14,024 nucleotides of DNA from Chrysochromulina parva (taxonomy: Eukaryota > Haptophyta > Prymnesiales > Chrysochromulinaceae). Below the pieces are notes generated by a model that was given only the letters and a program-made list of their open reading frames with translations, did not search any database and was not told the DNA's origin. The translations under genes were made by a program, and so were the position numbers. Positions 4,406 to 10,983 of the stretch are shown piece after piece. Location of the stretch: the NCBI GenBank assembly GCA_002887195.1, contig PJAB01001504.1:1-14024 (forward strand), given 5' to 3'. The number at the start of each line of letters is the position of its first letter. The first letter of the stretch is position 1.

Positions 4406-6336
4406 ATGGACTCGGAGACCGTACTTGGGGGCTCGGCTCCGGCGGAGCCCGGCTCCTCGTCGGACCCGCGGCGCGAGGCGTGGGGTTCAACATCGGACGC
4501 GCGCCTCCCGACGAGCGCGCGCAAGTCGCCCAGCAGCGCCTACTCCGACCGCTTCATCCCTTCCCGAAGGGGCGTTAACCTGCAGGATTCCTTTGCGCTG
4601 CTGCCCGACTCGCAGCCCAAGAAGCGCGACGCGCCGCAGGAGGGGGCCAAGGAGGACAACCTCGACACGTACACGATGCTCCTGCGTTCCGAGTTCCTCG
4701 GCAGCGAGTCGAACGGCGCACGCCGCGCCGATGAGCTCGCTCCGACGAGCCCGCAGCGCAACCTCTTCCGGTACCGCGCGCTGCCCAGTTCGCGCGCGGA
4801 CGAGAACGCGGCGTACGCGCTCTCGCCCGTGGGCTCGGACTCGCAGCGCGTCCTCTGCAGCCCGCGCAAGGCGCCGCGCAAGATCTCGACCGTACCGTAC
4901 AAGGTGCTCGACGCACCTGCGCTGCAAGACGACTTCTACCTCAACCTGGTGGACTGGTCGTCGCTGAACGTGCTCGCGGTCGGGCTGGGCACGTGCGTGT
5001 ACCTGTGGTCTGCGTGCACCTCGAAGGTCACCAAGCTCTGCGATCTCGGACCGGAGGATTCGGTCACCTCGGTCAACTGGACGCAGCGGGGCACTCACCT
5101 AGCTGTGGGCACGAGCGTGGGGGAAGTCCAAATTTGGGACGCGGCCAAGTGCCAGACGACGCGCACTATGAGCGGCCATCAGGCGCGCGTGGGCACGCTC
5201 TGCTGGTCGGGCCACATGCTCTCCTCGGGCAGTCGCGACCGTCTCATTCTGCAGCGCGACGTGCGCGTGGCAGACCACTTCACCTCGAAACTCTCCGGGC
5301 ACAAGCAGGAGGTGCAATTCCAGATGGGTCCCCTGGATGGCCTCCCTGATGGCCTCCCTGATGGCCTCCCTGACGACCTCCCTGATGGCCTCCCTCATCA
5401 GGTCTGCGGACTCAAGTGGTCCTTCGACGGCCAACAGCTCGCCTCGGGCGGCAACGACAACAAGCTCTACGTGTGGTCGCCGCACTCAACCTCGCCGCTG
5501 CTCCGATTCAACGAGCATACGGCGGCGGTCAAGGCGATCTCATGGTCGCCGCATCAGAATGGGTTGTTGGCCTCGGGCGGCGGCACGGCCGACAGGTGCA
5601 TACGGTTCTGGAATACGCAGACGGCCTCGCCTCTCAACAGCATCGACACGGGATCGCAGGTGTGCGATGGTGCACGGCACTCACAGCCTCGCTCAGCATG
5701 CATGTGCTCACCACGGCGCCTTGTCCCCTCCCCACAGGTGTGCGATCGTCGAGTGCCGCTCCTTGCCGCTCAGCTCCTTGATTGCCTCTAAATGCCTCTA
5801 ATTGCTGCTCCTTACCGCTCCTTGCCGCTCCGCTCCTGCCGCCCATTGCTGCTCATTGCCGCTCCTTGCCTTGTAGGTTTGTAATCTGTGCTGGTCGAAG
5901 AACATCAACGAGCTCGTCTCGACCCACGGCTACTCTCAGAATCAGATCGTCGTGTGGCGCTACTCTTCGATGTCCAAGGTGCATCTCCTGATGGCCTCCT
6001 TGTGGCCTCCCTGGTTACTCTTCGATGACCAAGGGGCCTCTCCTGATGGCCTCCCTAATGGCCTCCCTGATGGCCATGCTCACACTCGGGATCCCCTGCC
6101 TTGCATGCACACGCTCACAACGACGCCCGTGCCCCTCGTCGCAGGTGGCCACGCTCACGGGGCATACCCTACGCGTACTCTACCTGGCGATGTCACCTGA
6201 TGGGCAGACGATCGTCACCGGCGCAGGCGACGAAACTCTCCGCTTTTGGAATGTCTTCCCTGGCCCGAAGACCAAGGGAGACGCCTCCGACTCTTCCTCG
6301 ATGCTCGATTTCCAAGGGCGCACCTCCATCCGCTAA
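4406..6336 (+). CDS. FZR1/CDH1-like: Cdh1/Fizzy-related APC/C co-activator (WD40), four exons
   Basis: This is a substrate-recruiting activator of the anaphase-promoting complex, acting at mitotic exit, in G1 and in endoreplication. Proposed exons are 4406-5311, 5402-5659, 5877-5978 and 6145-6336, giving 485 aa, close to the 490-500 aa of animal and plant Cdh1. Residues 48-54 are DRFIPSR, the APC/C-binding C-box. KAPRKISTVPYKVLDAPALQ (155-174) precedes the propeller, which is typical of the Cdh1 rather than the Cdc20 branch. Blades follow (VNWTQRGTHLAVGTSVGEVQ, CGLKWSFDGQQLASGGNDNK, VWR, SPDGQTIVTGAGDETLRFWN). The protein ends in SIR, the C-terminal Ile-Arg tail. CDK-type sites occur, for example SPRK at 152-155. 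The exon junctions restore the conserved reading QE|VCGLKW, SQ|VCNLCW and SK|VATLTG. Confidence 0.95.
5312..5401 (+). other. Cdh1 intron 1 (90 nt, in frame, minisatellite)
   Basis: Donor GAG|GTGCAA, acceptor CATCAG|GTCTGC. Removing it joins QE to VCGLKW exactly as in Cdh1 proteins. It is 90 bases long with no stop codon, so retention would insert 30 residues rich in GLPD repeats. Most of it (5331-5400) is a 12-base tandem array, TGATGGCCTCCC. Confidence 0.88.
5334..5398 (+). repeat. 12-base tandem array TGATGGCCTCCC in intron 1
   Basis: About five units, one of them altered to TGACGACCTCCC. The same unit recurs in intron 3 of this gene (about 5988-6075). Confidence 0.85.
5660..5876 (+). other. 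Cdh1 intron 2 (217 nt), composite with internal CAG|GT
   Basis: Donor GATCGCAG|GTGTGCGATG, acceptor CCTTGTAG|GTTTGTAATC. Removal joins SQ to VCNLCWSK, the conserved Cdh1 reading. Internally, a complete acceptor (CCCCTCCCCACAG, ending 5737) is directly followed by a second donor, GTGTGCGATC, a copy of the first. The interval 5660-5737 therefore looks like a 78-base intron placed at the donor of a 139-base intron (5738-5876). The second part is a pyrimidine-rich degenerate repeat of GCTCCTTGCC. Confidence 0.88.
5698..5737 (+). mobile_element. Introner-like 3' element, copy A (Cdh1 intron 2)
   Basis: A 40-base block from ATGCATG to CCCCACAG. It shares GTGCTCACCACGGCGCC exactly with copy C in the propeller gene on the other strand. 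CTCAC inside it could serve as the branch point, followed by a pyrimidine tract and CAG. Assignment to a mobile introner family is an inference from sequence sharing between unrelated genes. Confidence 0.6.
5961..6070 (+). repeat. 55-base tandem duplication spanning the exon 3/intron 3 boundary
   Basis: TACTCTTCGATG at 5961 recurs at 6016. The unit covers the last 18 bases of exon 3, the donor and about 37 intron bases. In the second copy the donor AAGGTGC has become AAGGGGC, which removes the competing splice site. Confidence 0.85.
5979..6144 (+). other. Cdh1 intron 3 (166 nt)
   Basis: Donor TCCAAG|GTGCAT, acceptor GTCGCAG|GTGGCC. Removal joins SMSK to VATLTGHTLR, as in Cdh1 proteins. The intron has a near-copy of the preceding exon end plus donor region (55-base tandem duplication), then the TGATGGCCTCCC units also seen in intron 1, and ends with an introner-like element. 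Confidence 0.9.
6105..6144 (+). mobile_element. Introner-like 3' element, copy B (Cdh1 intron 3)
   Basis: A 40-base block, ATGCACACGCTCACAACGAC to GTCGCAG. It has the same length and register as copy A and matches it at about 70% of positions, including ATGCA, GCTCAC, ACG, CGCC, CCCCT and CAG. It is the most diverged of the three copies. Confidence 0.5.
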
Positions 6337-6634
6337 CCCGGCCGCGCAGCCATCCGCCATCGAGCGGTGGCGGCCCGATCGGGGGAAGAAAAGTGCTCGG
6401 AGAGAGTGCTGAGGTGTTCTCAGAAGGCTCGACAGGATTGCTGAGGAGGCATTATTCTGAGCAGCTGAGGAGCCCTGAGGAGCCGGACGGTCAGGTGAGT
6501 TGTGCATGTATTTACATTTGAGCGTCGTGTTGGACGCTCGACATGGCGCGATGCTGACTTTTTTCCTCCCGATCGGCGGCGCTTCTGCACCGCACTTACA
6601 AGCGTTCGTGGCAGAGCAGCTGAGCTCATCAGCC
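6337..6634 (+). other. Short intergenic/5' UTR stretch, possible leader intron
   Basis: There is no ATG between 6337 and 6494. TCAG|GTGAGT at 6495 is a strong donor. An acceptor at 6619 (GAGCAG) would join it to the following gene, removing 125 bases; 6602 (ACAAG) is an alternative. Frame is kept across 6495/6620, so coding sequence upstream is possible but has no start. The proposed intron contains the hairpin GAGCGTC-GTGTTG-GACGCTC at 6520-6539. Confidence 0.4.
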
Positions 6635-6940
6635 ATGCTGGGTTCCTTGAGAGCCATCGGCGGCAAATCCAAGTACGAGAAGGTGACCACTTTGGACGAG
6701 CCCATGGGAGTGTTTGCTATTGAAGAGGACGATGACATCGAGAGGATTTCGCAGCTTCACCGTGACCTTGTGACGCAGGCGCAGGCTGAGCTGCAGGAAT
6801 CCGAGGAGAGAGTCGGTCAGTTGCTATCCGAGCGCCAGTCGCATGCACGAGCTGTGCACGCCATACTCAAAGAGCCGACACCCACGGCATCAGGACCACG
6901 GCGAAGATACTGCTGCGGCAAAACGTGCGTGATTTTGTAG
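6635..6940 (+). CDS. Small coiled-coil protein with C-terminal CaaX prenylation box
   Basis: This is a 101-aa product starting at an ATG in good context (GCCATGC). An acidic patch (EEDDDIE, 30-36) leads into a coiled coil at about 36-79 (DIERISQLHRDLVTQAQAEL and onward). Then comes a basic stretch, GPRRRYCCGK, and the last four residues CVIL. CVIL fits a CaaX box ending in Leu, which favours geranylgeranylation. The upstream Cys pair could be palmitoylated, giving a dual membrane anchor behind basic residues. A G-protein gamma-like subunit is one possibility given the size, the coil and the CaaX box; a small SNARE-like or Rab-effector protein is another. I do not recognise the family. An upstream coding exon is possible. 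Confidence 0.65.
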   Translation: MLGSLRAIGGKSKYEKVTTLDEPMGVFAIEEDDDIERISQLHRDLVTQAQAELQESEERVGQLLSERQSHARAVHAILKEPTPTASGPRRRYCCGKTCVIL

Positions 6941-7258
6941 TTTTCGGTGCTTTTTGGATAGCGGCGGTGCAGCATGCGACTCGAGCTGTATGTTGGCAGC
7001 GTGTGATAGCATGGCGGGATCTCTCATCACTGGGTTCTGGTCTTCCGGGTGCTCTCGCATGTGGGGCACATGTGACCTTCACCTTGGTATCCGCGATCCG
7101 CTCGGGCCGCGTGCGCGGTTGGCGTACCCCTCAATGCGATGGCTACCCGCGCTAGTACGGACAACGAAATGTAAGCAACTGCCTGCGTGGTGCGGAGTGG
7201 CCGAATGCGACACTTTCTCTCACGCTGGATGTCCGGTCTTTTTATACTACGAAATCTC
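6941..7258. other. Convergent intergenic gap
   Basis: This lies between the stops of the CaaX gene (+) and the propeller gene (-) and presumably holds both 3' ends. I see no coding, RNA or repeat feature that I can support. Confidence 0.5.
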
Positions 7259-9203
7259 TCACCACGACGGATGGCCGCTCTGCGCCCGCGGTGTGGCCCA
7301 GAGCGGCGGATTGAGCGGCGATGGCGGAGCGCGCGGAGGCTCGTTCAAGATGGCGCCACCTCCACCTCCTGATCCACCTCTGGAGCCCAGCCGCGCCCCG
7401 GGCGAATCGAGCGCCGTGCTGGGCGCGCTCGGCGAGCGAGCGAGCGAGTCCCACGGGGCCGAACCGCTCATCTCGGCGCTCCGCGGCACCGCCGCTGCGA
7501 GCGGCGGGGGTCCCCGTGCAAAGGCCAGTAGCTCGTCGATCCGGCCTCGAAGAGCAAGGAGCGCTTCTTGCACCTCCTCGGTCACCTGTGGGGAGAGGGC
7601 GCCGTGGTGAGCACTTGCATGCAAGGAGCGCTTCTTGGACCTCCTCGGTCACCTGACGATGCGCCTCGTTGATCGACTCGACGCCGGCTTCGTATGGGCC
7701 GTCTCGCGCGCCCGCGACGGCGCCGCCATGGTAGACGTCGAGGGGCGCGGCGCCGACGCTCATAGCCACCTCAAGATCAAGCATTCGCCTTGTGAGGAGC
7801 TCGGATCGCTGAGCCGCGGCCTCGAGCCTCCCCGCGGCCGCGGCGGTCGCGCGTGGCAGCATGGAGCGGATCATGCTCAGGCTCTGATGCTGGCTGTCAA
7901 TCGACTCCCGCGCGCGGGTGAGGCGCTCGGGCAGCTGCTCGCTCATTCCCCACACGCGCACGCTCGCGTCCGCCCCGAAACTCCACACCAGGGCGACCGC
8001 GCCGTGTCGGGCACCGGGGGAGGCGAGCCCGCCCGTGCCCAACACGGCGCTCACCACACCAGGGGAGGCGAGCCCTCCGACGCAGCCCAAGTGCGCGCCC
8101 TCGAAGCGCGCGAGCGGCGCTGTCGAGGTGCCGTCGTAGATGGTGAGCCCGCCGCTCGTGTCGCCCACCCAGACACTGCCGGTGGCGGTCGCGGTGATGC
8201 AGCTCGTGGGCGCAGCGGCGCCAGCGGGCAGGATCGTGCGCAGCGCCGCGTGGCTGCTCGCATGGTACACCCGGAGTGTACCCATAGTGTCCGCGGCCCA
8301 CACGCGCGCCGCGGCTGCTGACAGCTGTGTGGCGAGCACCCGAATCGGCGCGCCGAAGTCGTCGAGACTGGCGACGTGCGCGAAGCCGCTCGCCTCGCTC
8401 GCAGACCAAATATGGATCACGTGGTCATCTCCGCCGCTCCACACCTCGTGCACTCCAGAAGCACCGGCGGCGCTGGCGGCGGGCGCGGCGAAGGCGGCGA
8501 GGGAATGGACTGGACACGTGTGGGCGCGCATCGTACGCAGCGGAGCCAAGCTGAGCGACCACGCGCGTATGAGGAAGTCGCTGCCCGCCGAGAAGACGGT
8601 CGCCGCCGTGGACGAAACGCACGCCTCGGCCAATGCATGCACAGTCGAGCTGTGCGCGCGCGCGTCGTGCAGCGCCTGGCCGCCACGTCGGGAGACGCGC
8701 ACGAGGCCGTCGAAGCTGCCGCTCCAGAGGTGGCCGTCGGACGTGGCGAGCAGGCAGCTGATCGCGTGGCCGCCGGCGCCGGAGAGTGTGCGCGACACGC
8801 GGCCCGAGCGCGGCTCACGCGCACTCAGCCGGCCAGCATGCTGCGTGCTCGCATGGCTAGCGTATTGTGCGCGCAGTGGCGCCTCGGCGAGATAGATGAG
8901 GCGCTCGTCTGCGCAAATGGCGCGCACCGGCAGCGCATCGAGGCGCAGGATGCACTGCGCGAGCCCCTCCGAGGCTCGCGGCGGATGACTGACAACAGGC
9001 CAGGCCGAGGGCGTCGGCCGCGGAAAAGGCGCAGGAGGAGAGCGAGGCGTCGACACTCGGTTCGTTGGCGGATTGCTCTGACGGCGTGGCGAAGGCATGT
9101 CCTGCTTACGGGGTGAGGAAGGCGTGCCCTGGCTGCGGGGTGAGGGTGCTGCGAACCCCAAGCGCGTCGGTAGCGTCTGAGCCGATTTAACGACGGTCGC
9201 CAT
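7259..9203 (-). CDS. WD40-like beta-propeller protein with coiled-coil tail, two exons
   Basis: The proposed exons are 9203-7653 (517 aa) and 7585-7259 (108 aa), 625 aa in all. The ATG at 9203 has the context AACATGGC. Residues 1-80 are disordered and rich in SPR/SPRK motifs, possible CDK or MAPK targets. Residues about 85-420 give propeller blades: LWSGSFDGLVRV (159-170), VFSAGSDFLIRAWS (203-216), VWSGGDDHVIHIWS (254-267), VWAADTMGTLRVY (301-313), VWVGDTSGGLTIYD (344-357) and LVWSFGADASVRVWG (405-419). The pattern recalls the WD-like region of inositol polyphosphate 5-phosphatases, but no phosphatase domain follows. Residues about 425-480 and VTEEVQEALLALRGRIDELL at the start of exon 2 form coils. 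The last 80 residues are low-complexity Pro/Gly/Ser. A scaffold role is inferred. Without intron removal the reading continues frameshifted to 7242. Confidence 0.8.
7586..7620 (-). mobile_element. Introner-like 3' element, copy C (propeller gene)
   Basis: A 35-base block on the minus strand from ATGCAAG to CCCCACAG. It contains GTGCTCACCACGGCGCC, identical to copy A. Relative to copy A it lacks about five bases in the pyrimidine tract. Confidence 0.6.
7586..7652 (-). other. Propeller-gene intron (67 nt)
   Basis: On the minus strand it begins CGTCAG|GTGACCGAGG and ends CTCTCCCCACAG|GTGACCGAGG. Its length is not a multiple of three, so retention would frameshift. Splicing is supported because the downstream frame continues as a coil, VTEEVQEALLALRGRIDELL. 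The intron's first 32 bases copy the first 32 bases of the next exon with one mismatch. Confidence 0.85.
7989..8078 (-). repeat. 45-base tandem duplication in the propeller gene
   Basis: GGLASPG recurs 15 residues apart (376-382 and 391-397), with near-identical DNA around each copy (CTCGCCTCCCC). The second half of the unit has diverged. It lengthens the loop before the last recognisable blade. Confidence 0.5.
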
Positions 9204-9498
9204 GTTTCAAGAGGAAATCACACCATTTGAATTCACAGATGGTTCGACACCAAGACACCATCACACTCCCGAAGGCTACCGTACATCGTCGACGTGAAGG
9301 TCCACGCGTTCACACAAAGGTGGGTCGAGCGGGCACTGGGGAAAAGAGGACGGCGGGTCCCCGAGTCGCGAGAGGCGCAGGCAGGCGTGCGTGTGCCGCT
9401 TTCTAGGGGTTGTAAGACCACGACCCCCGCGCAAGCTTTTTATCCGCCGCCGCCGCCACCGACGCCGTCGCCGCCGTCGCCGCCGCCTGCATTCAGCC
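9204..9498. promoter_or_regulatory. Divergent promoter of the propeller and AP2-like genes
   Basis: These 295 bases lie between two start codons pointing away from each other. The only notable element is the CCG-rich leader next to the AP2-like gene. No convincing TATA box or known factor site was found. Confidence 0.4.
9446..9489 (+). repeat. Degenerate CCG/GCC repeat in the 5' leader
   Basis: A roughly 44-base run of CCG-like trinucleotides ends ten bases before the AP2-like start codon. Translated upstream in frame it would give poly-Arg, which is why the ATG at 9499 is preferred. Confidence 0.75.
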
Positions 9499-10983
9499 AT
9501 GGAACTGAGCGCGTACGAATCGGAGCGTCTCCGCAACATTTTGGCTAACGAGCGTAAGCTTGCCGAGCTTGGTCTGCTCGGAGCATCCGAGGCATTCCAT
9601 CAGCCACGAAGCCATCGTCCTGCGCAGCGGTCTCCTCGCTCCACAGAGCCCGTTCTTCCTGTGCGCAATTCTTCAAGATCCACAAAAGGTTACATGCCGC
9701 CACGGCTGGCGGCTTTGATAGAGGCTGGCGAACAAGCTAAAAAGGACGGAAAGCAGCCGCTCCCAAACCGTCCAAAACTCCCAGCGAAAGTTCACAAGCT
9801 GCCCAGGACAAGTCACAAGCTGCCCAGGACATCTGCTCCGTTCAAGGGCGCTGGCGTTGCTCTTGCGCTCGACATCGGCCATGGACGTGTCTTTGCCCGT
9901 CTCTCTGTGCGCACCCCTGCAGTCGGCATTCCTGCATCTCGCTCGCGTCGCTCCTCCGTTGCTAGCATGACAGCCGAAGAAGCAATCGCGGCGGCCGCTT
10001 CTGAAGGGCTCGAGCTCATTCGAGCTCCCGAAGGAAAAGGCATGGGCAGAGGCTCGGGTAGCCTGACCGGATACAAGTGCGTCATATTCATGAATAACGC
10101 GGCTGCCAAGCCTTACCGAGTGCAAGTGTGGCGCGGCGGCATGACTCGGGTGGTCGGATGTTTCGCCACGGCCGAAGAGGGTGCGCTCGCCTACGCAAGG
10201 TTCCTCAAATGTGAGGAGAAGGGCACTGCAGAGTTCAGTTGGGCCCTGCAGAGTTCAGGTGACGCCGGCTCGTCTGGGCTCCACGCCTCCGCTGCGCCTC
10301 CGCCTGCTCCTCCCTCTGTGTTTCAGGGCGAGGCCAGCTCGTCTGGGCTCCATGCCATCGCTGCGCCTCTGCCTGCTCCTCACTCTGTGTTTCAGGGCGA
10401 GGCCAGCTCGTCTGGGCTCCATGCCATCGCTGCGCCTCCGCCTGCTCCCACTACGTATCTGGGTGAAGGAGACTGGCCAGCCGAAGGCAGCCGTGTCGAG
10501 GTGCGCATTCAGGAAGCTGGGCTCGAAGGCAGCCGTTTCGAAGGGCACGTGGTGCGAGTGGTGCGAACGTCAGGGTCGGCGGAGCAGCAGCAGGTACAGA
10601 TGCTTGTACGGTACATGGAGCTGCTGGCAGAGGACAGTGACGGTGCATTGCTGGAGGAATGGGTGCCACTCAGCCGCTGCCGCCCTGCACCCCCACCGCC
10701 GCCAGCCAACTTTGTAGAGCGCTTTGTGCCGGGTGACCGTTGCGACCTCTGGTTCGAAGATGCTTGGTGGGATGCCGAATTCGTGAGCCGCGGTTCGGTG
10801 CGTGGGCTGTTTCGCGTGCGATCGGTGCAATATGACGTGTTTCACGAGGTAGAGGAAGCGAGGCTGCGCCCGGCGTGGATCTTTGCCGACGACAATCGCA
10901 ATGGCACGGCAGACAAAGGGGGGGATGGCGGCCGCCTATGTTACAACTCCATGCATGCACAAAAGAGAGCCCGGTTGGCATAA
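9499..10983 (+). CDS. AP2-like / Agenet-like nuclear protein
   Basis: The 494-aa product is probably a DNA- or chromatin-binding regulator. The ATG at 9499 has the context AGCCATGG; the frame is open further upstream only through CCG repeats. Residues 6-26 (YESERLRNILANERKLAELG) match the short N-terminal 'YE..R..NI..N...L..LG' motif seen in several plant and algal nuclear proteins. About 158-237 resemble the algal AP2 module: EEAIAAAASEGLEL, then TGYKCVIF, YRVQVWRGG, VGCFATAEEGALAYARFL. Two Agenet/Tudor-like units follow, at about 328-395 (GSRVEVRI, FEGHVVRVV, VRYMEL, EEWVPLSRCRP) and 408-460 (PGDRCDLWFEDAWWDAEFVS, FRVRSVQYD, RLRPAWIF). The C-terminus KRARLA could be a nuclear localisation signal. 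Between the AP2 and Agenet parts lie three 23-residue repeats. There is no intron. Confidence 0.82.
   Translation: MELSAYESERLRNILANERKLAELGLLGASEAFHQPRSHRPAQRSPRSTEPVLPVRNSSRSTKGYMPPRLAALIEAGEQAKKDGKQPLPNRPKLPAKVHKLPRTSHKLPRTSAPFKGAGVALALDIGHGRVFARLSVRTPAVGIPASRSRRSSVASMTAEEAIAAAASEGLELIRAPEGKGMGRGSGSLTGYKCVIFMNNAAAKPYRVQVWRGGMTRVVGCFATAEEGALAYARFLKCEEKGTAEFSWALQSSGDAGSSGLHASAAPPPAPPSVFQGEASSSGLHAIAAPLPAPHSVFQGEASSSGLHAIAAPPPAPTTYLGEGDWPAEGSRVEVRIQEAGLEGSRFEGHVVRVVRTSGSAEQQQVQMLVRYMELLAEDSDGALLEEWVPLSRCRPAPPPPPANFVERFVPGDRCDLWFEDAWWDAEFVSRGSVRGLFRVRSVQYDVFHEVEEARLRPAWIFADDNRNGTADKGGDGGRLCYNSMHAQKRARLA
9793..9834 (+). repeat. 21-base tandem duplication (HKLPRTS x2)
   Basis: Two adjacent 21-base copies encode HKLPRTS twice in the basic linker of the AP2-like protein, with two mismatches near the end of the unit. 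Confidence 0.9.
10268..10450 (+). repeat. 69-base tandem repeat, about 2.6 copies, coding
   Basis: Units start at 10268, 10337 and 10406, and the last is partial. Each encodes SSGLHA-x-AAP-x-PAP-x-SVFQGEAS, 23 residues. The DNA is nearly identical between units, suggesting recent expansion or homogenisation. Confidence 0.92.

Follow-up and report, generated by a model that had tools for sequence, protein, structure and literature searches.

Half-intron cassettes between duplicated host sequences in Chrysochromulina parva, and a possible repair route to new introns

Cassettes in the Cdh1 and propeller genes

The stretch analysed here, which we call the window, comprises positions 1 to 14,024 of contig PJAB01001504.1 from the haptophyte Chrysochromulina parva (assembly GCA_002887195.1). 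Within it, the predicted introns of a Cdh1 gene and of a beta-propeller gene on the opposite strand end in copies of a repeated block, a candidate introner that we refer to as the family-1 cassette. A preliminary description had placed three related blocks, here named A, B and C, at Cdh1 intron 2, Cdh1 intron 3 and the propeller intron, and all three are present within a few bases of those places. We add three observations: a long duplication of host sequence surrounds most cassettes, what is repeated is in most cases only half an intron, and a second family exists. Sequence between the first host copy and the cassette is termed filler. The features of the window that bear on these observations, with introns as predicted, are the following.

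5312..5401, + strand: Cdh1 intron 1, ending in the second family at 5384-5401 with 1 mismatch to GATTGCCTCCCTCATCAG; no significant host repeat found
5657..5671, + strand: host repeat, first copy (CAGGTGTGCGATGGT), giving the GT 5′ splice site of intron 2a
5660..5737, + strand: Cdh1 intron 2a, 78 nt, consisting of host repeat, filler and cassette A
5696..5737, + strand: cassette A, family 1, with GCATGCATGTGCTCACCACGGCGCC, a pyrimidine tract and CACAG
5735..5749, + strand: host repeat, second copy (CAGGTGTGCGATCGT), beginning within the CAG of cassette A
5738..5876, + strand: Cdh1 intron 2b; in relatives GSQ is followed at once by VCNL
5979..6144, + strand: Cdh1 intron 3, ending in a diverged family-1 cassette
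6071..6083, + strand: host repeat, first copy (TGGCCATGCTCAC), now within intron 3; a weak repeat with a score of 10.5
6099..6144, + strand: cassette B, diverged (CCTTGCATGCACACGCTCACAACGACGCCC...CGCAG)
6146..6158, + strand: host repeat, second copy (TGGCCACGCTCAC), exon side, pairing with 6071..6083
7621..7655, - strand: host repeat, first copy, 35 bp, encoding QVTEEVQEALLA and giving the GT at 7652
7586..7652, - strand: propeller-gene intron, 67 nt, consisting of host repeat and cassette C; compared with protein records P0121 and P0122
7586..7622, - strand: cassette C, family 1, 0 mismatches
7554..7588, - strand: host repeat, second copy, 35 bp, exon side, 34/35 identical to the first

Copy C is the clearest case in the window of the duplicated-host layout, the 5′ part of its intron being a 35-bp copy of the start of the next exon. 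Measured against GCATGCAAGTGCTCACCACGGCGCC, C has 0 mismatches and A has 1; B has 5, or 4 if the eighth base is left free. B is thus the weakest of the three, and it shares the upstream CCTTGCATGCA with longer members of the family. Paired with each other, A and C head the list of inverted repeats in the window (33 nt, 91%). In the propeller gene the cassette end at 7586 stands as first described, and the extent of the intron is corrected to 7652-7586. All three Cdh1 introns, as modelled here, and the propeller intron contain introner ends. Intron 3 contains in addition a second copy of a Cdh1 exon end with its 5′ splice site, the two forming a 39-nt direct repeat (92%; 5961-5999 and 6016-6054).

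Cdh1 intron 2 calls for a revised model. The block at 5696-5737 is where the preliminary description had it; its reading as the end of a complete intron is probably not right. At 5737/5738 the CAG of cassette A adjoins the GT that opens the next intron piece. All 12 Cdh1 relatives fetched (120 listed of 7998) read GSQVCNL and lack the residues that an exon at 5738 would add; this makes it probable that 5660-5737 either begins an intron spanning 5660-5876 or is a unit spliced recursively. Record P0001 (jgi/Chrpa1 Chrysochromulina_OHIO), a 99% match to the joined Cdh1 protein of the window, has a gene model with five extra residues, VCDRR, as a microexon at this site. Recursive splicing at 5737/5738 is one possibility, and a boundary of that 5-residue microexon is the other.

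Copy number and anatomy of two families

We searched the assembly of 45.07 Mb in 2199 contigs, where pattern counts are lower bounds and the control is the same pattern read backwards. The 25-mer GCATGCANGTGCTCACCACGGCGCC, with one free base and at most 3 mismatches, has 1774 matches (881 forward and 893 reverse) against 0 for its control, bearing out the suggestion of a genome-wide family, which fewer than a handful of matches would have contradicted. Exact 25-mer matches number 405, with CACAGGT following 2-26 nt later in 248; a pattern joining the 17-mer core to CACAGGT has 296 matches. The copies are dispersed, with 71 contigs, counted by hand, among the first 100 matches of the 25-mer listed. 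Longer 5′ forms are less frequent: the 30-mer GATGACCTGCCTTGCATGCANGTGCTCACC, reaching GATGACC, has 219 matches and the 28-mer GTACGTTGATTGCCACTGATGACCTGCC, starting with GTACGTTGATT, has 118, each with a control of 0. The 118 matches with the GTACGTTGATT end, set against 1774 for the core, indicate that most copies share the 3′ half alone. The cassette is about 40 nt long and holds TGCTCAC, which we take to be a branch-point-like motif, a pyrimidine tract and AG, or the 3′ half of an intron only. Near-identical sequence ends the predicted introns of many unrelated genes, as judged from sequence together with protein continuity, and on balance we favour the view that family 1 is a high-copy introner family of Chrysochromulina, introner being used in the broad sense.

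Nor is the block simply the general 3′ end of introns in this species. We sampled 214 kb, made up of the window and 20 other stretches of 10 kb each; of 35 acceptor-like sites there, most not verified as introns, 6 carry the core with at most 4 mismatches. Cdh1 introns 1 and 2b are without the family-1 block, which likewise speaks against a general branch-point consensus. Chance or such a consensus as the whole explanation is ruled out by the counts of 1774 against 0 and 6 of 35.

The 16-mer core, with at most 2 mismatches, has 3519 genome matches against 147 for the reversed control. In the 214-kb sample about 9 of 67 core matches (at most 3 mismatches) are introner-like by reading, 3 of the 9 lying in the window, and the reversed core has 5 matches. 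Most core matches in the sample fall outside introner context, and the 16/17-mer core was rejected as a family marker. A related word, approximately YGCYCANNACGGCGCY, is over-represented outside introner context (window 8036; L048, L052, L056, L057), accounting for about 58 of the 67 core matches against 5 for the reversed core. On the minus strand of L052, positions 6977-7341 hold an array of CTGATCCCCACAG, mostly at 26-nt spacing, in which an acceptor-like word stands in tandem. Among viral contigs, 1 of 14 exact 17-mer matches is cassette-like, at L038 4495-4542 with CACAG followed by GT, just where a phage-like contig of 4554 bases ends; two further patterns searched in viral contigs gave 0 matches. 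A viral carrier of the cassette was rejected, the L038 copy being probably a chimeric assembly.

The anatomy of the insertions was studied in 74 distinct copies with at most 2 mismatches, a sample biased to the best conserved copies that does not include B. Another copy lies within the 90-nt flanks in 21 of them, which were left out of the null test, leaving 53 isolated copies. Taking 418 mispaired flanks as the null, the flanking direct repeat passes the 99th percentile in 38 of the 53 and the highest null score in 31; with tandem copies included, 55 of 74 score above 12. Judging from these alignments, the cassette in most isolated copies examined is very probably flanked by two host copies, the first of which can supply the GT of the intron. 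In 26 of the 74 the GT in the first repeat is aligned with the base after the cassette AG, and the second repeat begins within a few bases of that AG. Repeats in these aligned copies measure 13-41 bp (median 23, with shared AG bases counted and at least L030 partly tandem), 11 pairs are identical, and the mean divergence is 3.6%. The corresponding introns measure 64-95 nt and fall 6, 7 and 13 into the three classes modulo 3. The predicted intron would then consist of a copy of the start of the following exon, usually filler, and the cassette, and splicing would restore an uninterrupted exon.

Some copies depart from this layout. L018 +683 and L009 +1876 keep a GTACGT 5′ end and are missing the 3′ end; by reading, they would rely on the second host copy for their acceptor AG. 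A script flagged 3 copies of this class ('II', the GTACGT type), of which 2 were counted real; L030 -1561 was rejected as a tandem repeat. Copies at L017, L024, L029 and L076 lie between host repeats with no evident pair of AG and GT, which suggests that insertion itself is independent of splicing.

The second family ends in CCTCCCTCATCAG followed by GT and surfaced in a search for GT repeats after AG. That dinucleotide showed no clear excess over others (AG 19 per 1000, CT 29), tandem arrays dominating the counts. The pattern TCTGATTGCCTCCCTCATCAGGT, with at most 3 mismatches, has 2448 genome matches and a reversed control of 0. A first null test placed 0 of 16 copies above the 99th percentile, the null being spoiled by a tandem array in L048; with L048 removed and shorter flanks, 6 of 12 second-family copies score above the maximum of 126 mispairings. 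In 4 of these 6, and so in 4 of the 12 examined, the second repeat starts at the AG (L009 +666, L024 -2504, L055 +7457 and L058 +9780), and it starts with GT in 3 of these 4, all except L024.

Besides Cdh1 and the beta-propeller gene, the window carries genes for a sulfatase, for Aha1 and for an Agenet-domain protein. The open frame with the Agenet domain (9391-10983) contains three 69-nt direct repeats at 10258-10464.

Predicted splicing and the origin of the cassettes

Protein continuity across the predicted junction is seen in the propeller gene, in L015 and in L027, and weakly in L025. With the intron removed, the phosphatase region of the L015 protein aligns to solved PP5 phosphatases with no gap at the junction; the longest open frame at L015 is the wrong frame. 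Pfam searches of 7 joined proteins gave no match for 4 and matches not crossing the junction for 2. Only in L025 does a match cross it (at residue 350), to RAMA, at 30.8 bits, below the Pfam cut-off of 35.2.

The preliminary description supposed that the block is mobile. In the propeller gene, P0122 (98% identical) reads through the insert (VTEEVQEALLACKCSPRR), which is absent in 5 of the 6 relatives fetched (14 listed), from P0121 (91%) outward (P0121, P0123, P0124, P0127 and P0129). In the L027 gene, P0135 (92%) reads through the insert, and P0136 (82%) and P0137 (43%) are without it. Both read-through records carry the peptide ACKCSPRR..., an indication that predicted proteins in databases can contain introner sequence. 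For Cdh1 no read-through record was found among the 13 sequences fetched. For 2 of the 3 genes searched, then, some records have the insert and others lack it, which lends support to mobility; the insert-free records could be spliced transcripts, so this presence/absence pattern is support, not proof.

We tentatively propose that introns are made here in bulk without a transposon: host break repair or template switching would copy 3′ intron halves into exons, and the duplicated exon would give the other half. We put the probability of this reading at roughly 0.38. A staggered break, or a replication fork stepping back by the repeat length, would open the host site. The 3′ part of an introner already in the genome would then serve as template for the patch, joined through short matches on one side or both, and fill-in synthesis would duplicate the host stretch. 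Where a patch happened to end exactly at AG before the duplicated GT, splicing would remove it and exons could tolerate it, which would account for the uniform 3′ end of intronic copies.

The joins bear on the copying step. At the filler-free joins (12 of 46 copies), microhomology between host and cassette averages 2.4 nt against 0.43 nt by chance, and by reading, longer shared words occur at the joins of copies with no splice-ready end (CGGCGCC in L024, GGCGCC in L076). The variable repeats together with this microhomology favour staggered-break patching or template switching, and that the copying proceeds by one of these we rate at somewhat short of an even chance. There is a hint that filler was copied from donor sequence: GGCAACTCA plus core occurs in 6 places, spread over 4 contigs with 3 places in a single array, and the filler of cassette A plus core has one other match (C1572:4965-4992, 2 mismatches), which is absent from the 7 matches of cassette A with its tail. 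If the proposed origin is true, the same layout in two families would be a property of host repair rather than of either element.

Several observations weigh against this proposal. Two families with thousands of matches are unexplained by a general repair process alone. That 30 of 74 copies begin precisely at GCATGC, a preferred 5′ edge, and that 248 of the 296 copies running into CACAGGT retain GCATGCAN looks more like a discrete element than like random patches. Filler separates repeat and cassette in 34 of 46 copies, and in 26 of 30 in a second count. That filler is decayed host repeat was considered and is unsupported on average (0.304 against 0.291, with 2 of 26 above the 95th percentile of the null), although in the L027 gene the first repeat may have been longer, to judge from the P0135 protein. 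No repeat above the 99th percentile of the null was found in 15 of the 53 isolated copies, and the bias of the 74-copy sample should be kept in mind here. Open-frame length does not discriminate: among 15 joined copies the spliced downstream frame is longer in 9, the unspliced in 5, and they are equal in 1, and the two GTACGT-type copies have near-equal frames spliced or unspliced.

Alternatively, the cassette could be a tiny element resembling a short interspersed element (SINE), spread by target-primed reverse transcription. Intron RNA would be copied from its 3′ CAG, often with 5′ truncation, and the repeats would be target-site duplications. We consider this unlikely. Arguing for it are the variable repeat length, the graded 5′ loss (1774 core, 219 30-mer and 118 28-mer matches) and the precise 3′ end of intronic copies, though these are selected for splicing; filler at the 5′ join is also known in SINE-like elements. 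Counter to this, there are only 5 RVT_1 matches in 45 Mb (best E 3.8e-7; 7 candidates scored), inspection shows no poly-A-like 3′ tail, and L018 +683 and L009 +1876 are without the 3′ end but have GTACGT, so the 3′ end is not obligatory. Less probable again is a DNA transposon of the non-autonomous, cut-and-paste kind whose target duplications would be unusually long. The variable repeats of 13-41 bp contrast with the 3-9 bp given for earlier families in the sections of PMC9860276 drawn on here, and no terminal inverted repeats were seen between GCATGCAAG and CCCCACAG (by eye). These two points and the ragged ends of some copies argue against a cut-and-paste transposase, filler is a further difficulty, and the cassettes appear not to be transposon-type introners with 3-9 bp target duplications. 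On the other side stand the preferred 5′ edge of the cassette and a splice-site geometry that PMC9860276, as far as drawn on, describes for Symbiodinium.

A third possibility dispenses with a mobile unit and combines tandem duplication of an intron end and the following exon start with a strong species-specific branch-point consensus. It has a precedent in a new potato intron formed from a duplicated intron 3′ part and following exon start, according to the part of PMC4974935 consulted, and whole units do stand in tandem here (L005, L007, L009, L013 and L022). It is contradicted by the dispersed count (1774 against 0, over 71 contigs in the first 100 matches listed), just 6 of 35 acceptor-like sites carry the core, and L017, L024 and L076 have no evident splice-ready ends; we regard it as very improbable. 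An assembly artefact or chimeric repeats receive next to no weight from us. The assembly is fragmented into 2199 contigs and the L038 cassette is probably a chimera, but protein records from the contigs of other assemblies (P0122 and P0135) show the same insert, read through, at the corresponding place in the gene.

Significance and relation to known systems

The mass gain of introns has long called for an explanation, and the cassettes show how new introns may be made in bulk. Apparently young copies, such as those 11 of 26 with identical repeats, make the insertion event readable base by base. Exon duplication and introner invasion, commonly treated as separate models, come together in their anatomy. 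No earlier report of this architecture was recognised in the open-licence literature searched. Detection by Gozashti et al. 2022, as set out in the portion of PMC9860276 used here, required intron-intron similarity near both splice boundaries, a filter rather than a definition. Most copies in C. parva have no such similarity at both ends, the 3′ half alone being common, and surveys with this requirement would tend to undercount such introners.

The nearest comparison by name is family 5 of Chrysochromulina sp. TARA_PON_109_MAG_00232, on the description in that portion of PMC9860276. It is alike in genus name, in being made of repeated introns with no terminal inverted repeats, and in that one splice site is carried and the other comes from target duplication. 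It differs in having a 4-bp duplication and an element that carries the 5′ site, whereas here the duplications are 13-41 bp and the element usually carries the 3′ site. The introners of Symbiodinium microadriaticum are closer in geometry, the element bringing the 3′ splice site and the target duplication the 5′, but the same source gives them 4-bp duplications and terminal inverted repeats, in contrast to the long variable duplications with no inverted ends seen here. In Amoebophrya (PMC7789003, in the part consulted), introner elements are likewise repeated introns with varying direct repeats. Those direct repeats are of 3-5 nt, with inverted repeats of 8-20 nt and non-canonical splice sites, whereas the predicted C. 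parva introns are canonical GT-AG with long direct repeats.

Two further systems resemble the cassettes in their duplications rather than in their repeated unit. The neointrons of Daphnia have direct repeats explained by staggered breaks, and the text of PMC4202315 used here does not describe them as one high-copy family; in C. parva there are two families with thousands of matches. Under the tandem exon duplication model (Rogers 1989 and Hellsten 2011, as presented in the part of PMC4974935 consulted), AG followed by GT in a duplicated exon gives the 5′ splice site and leaves the protein unchanged, as we propose here. The difference is that in C. parva a dispersed repeat, set between the two host copies, brings the branch-point-like word, the pyrimidine tract and the AG.

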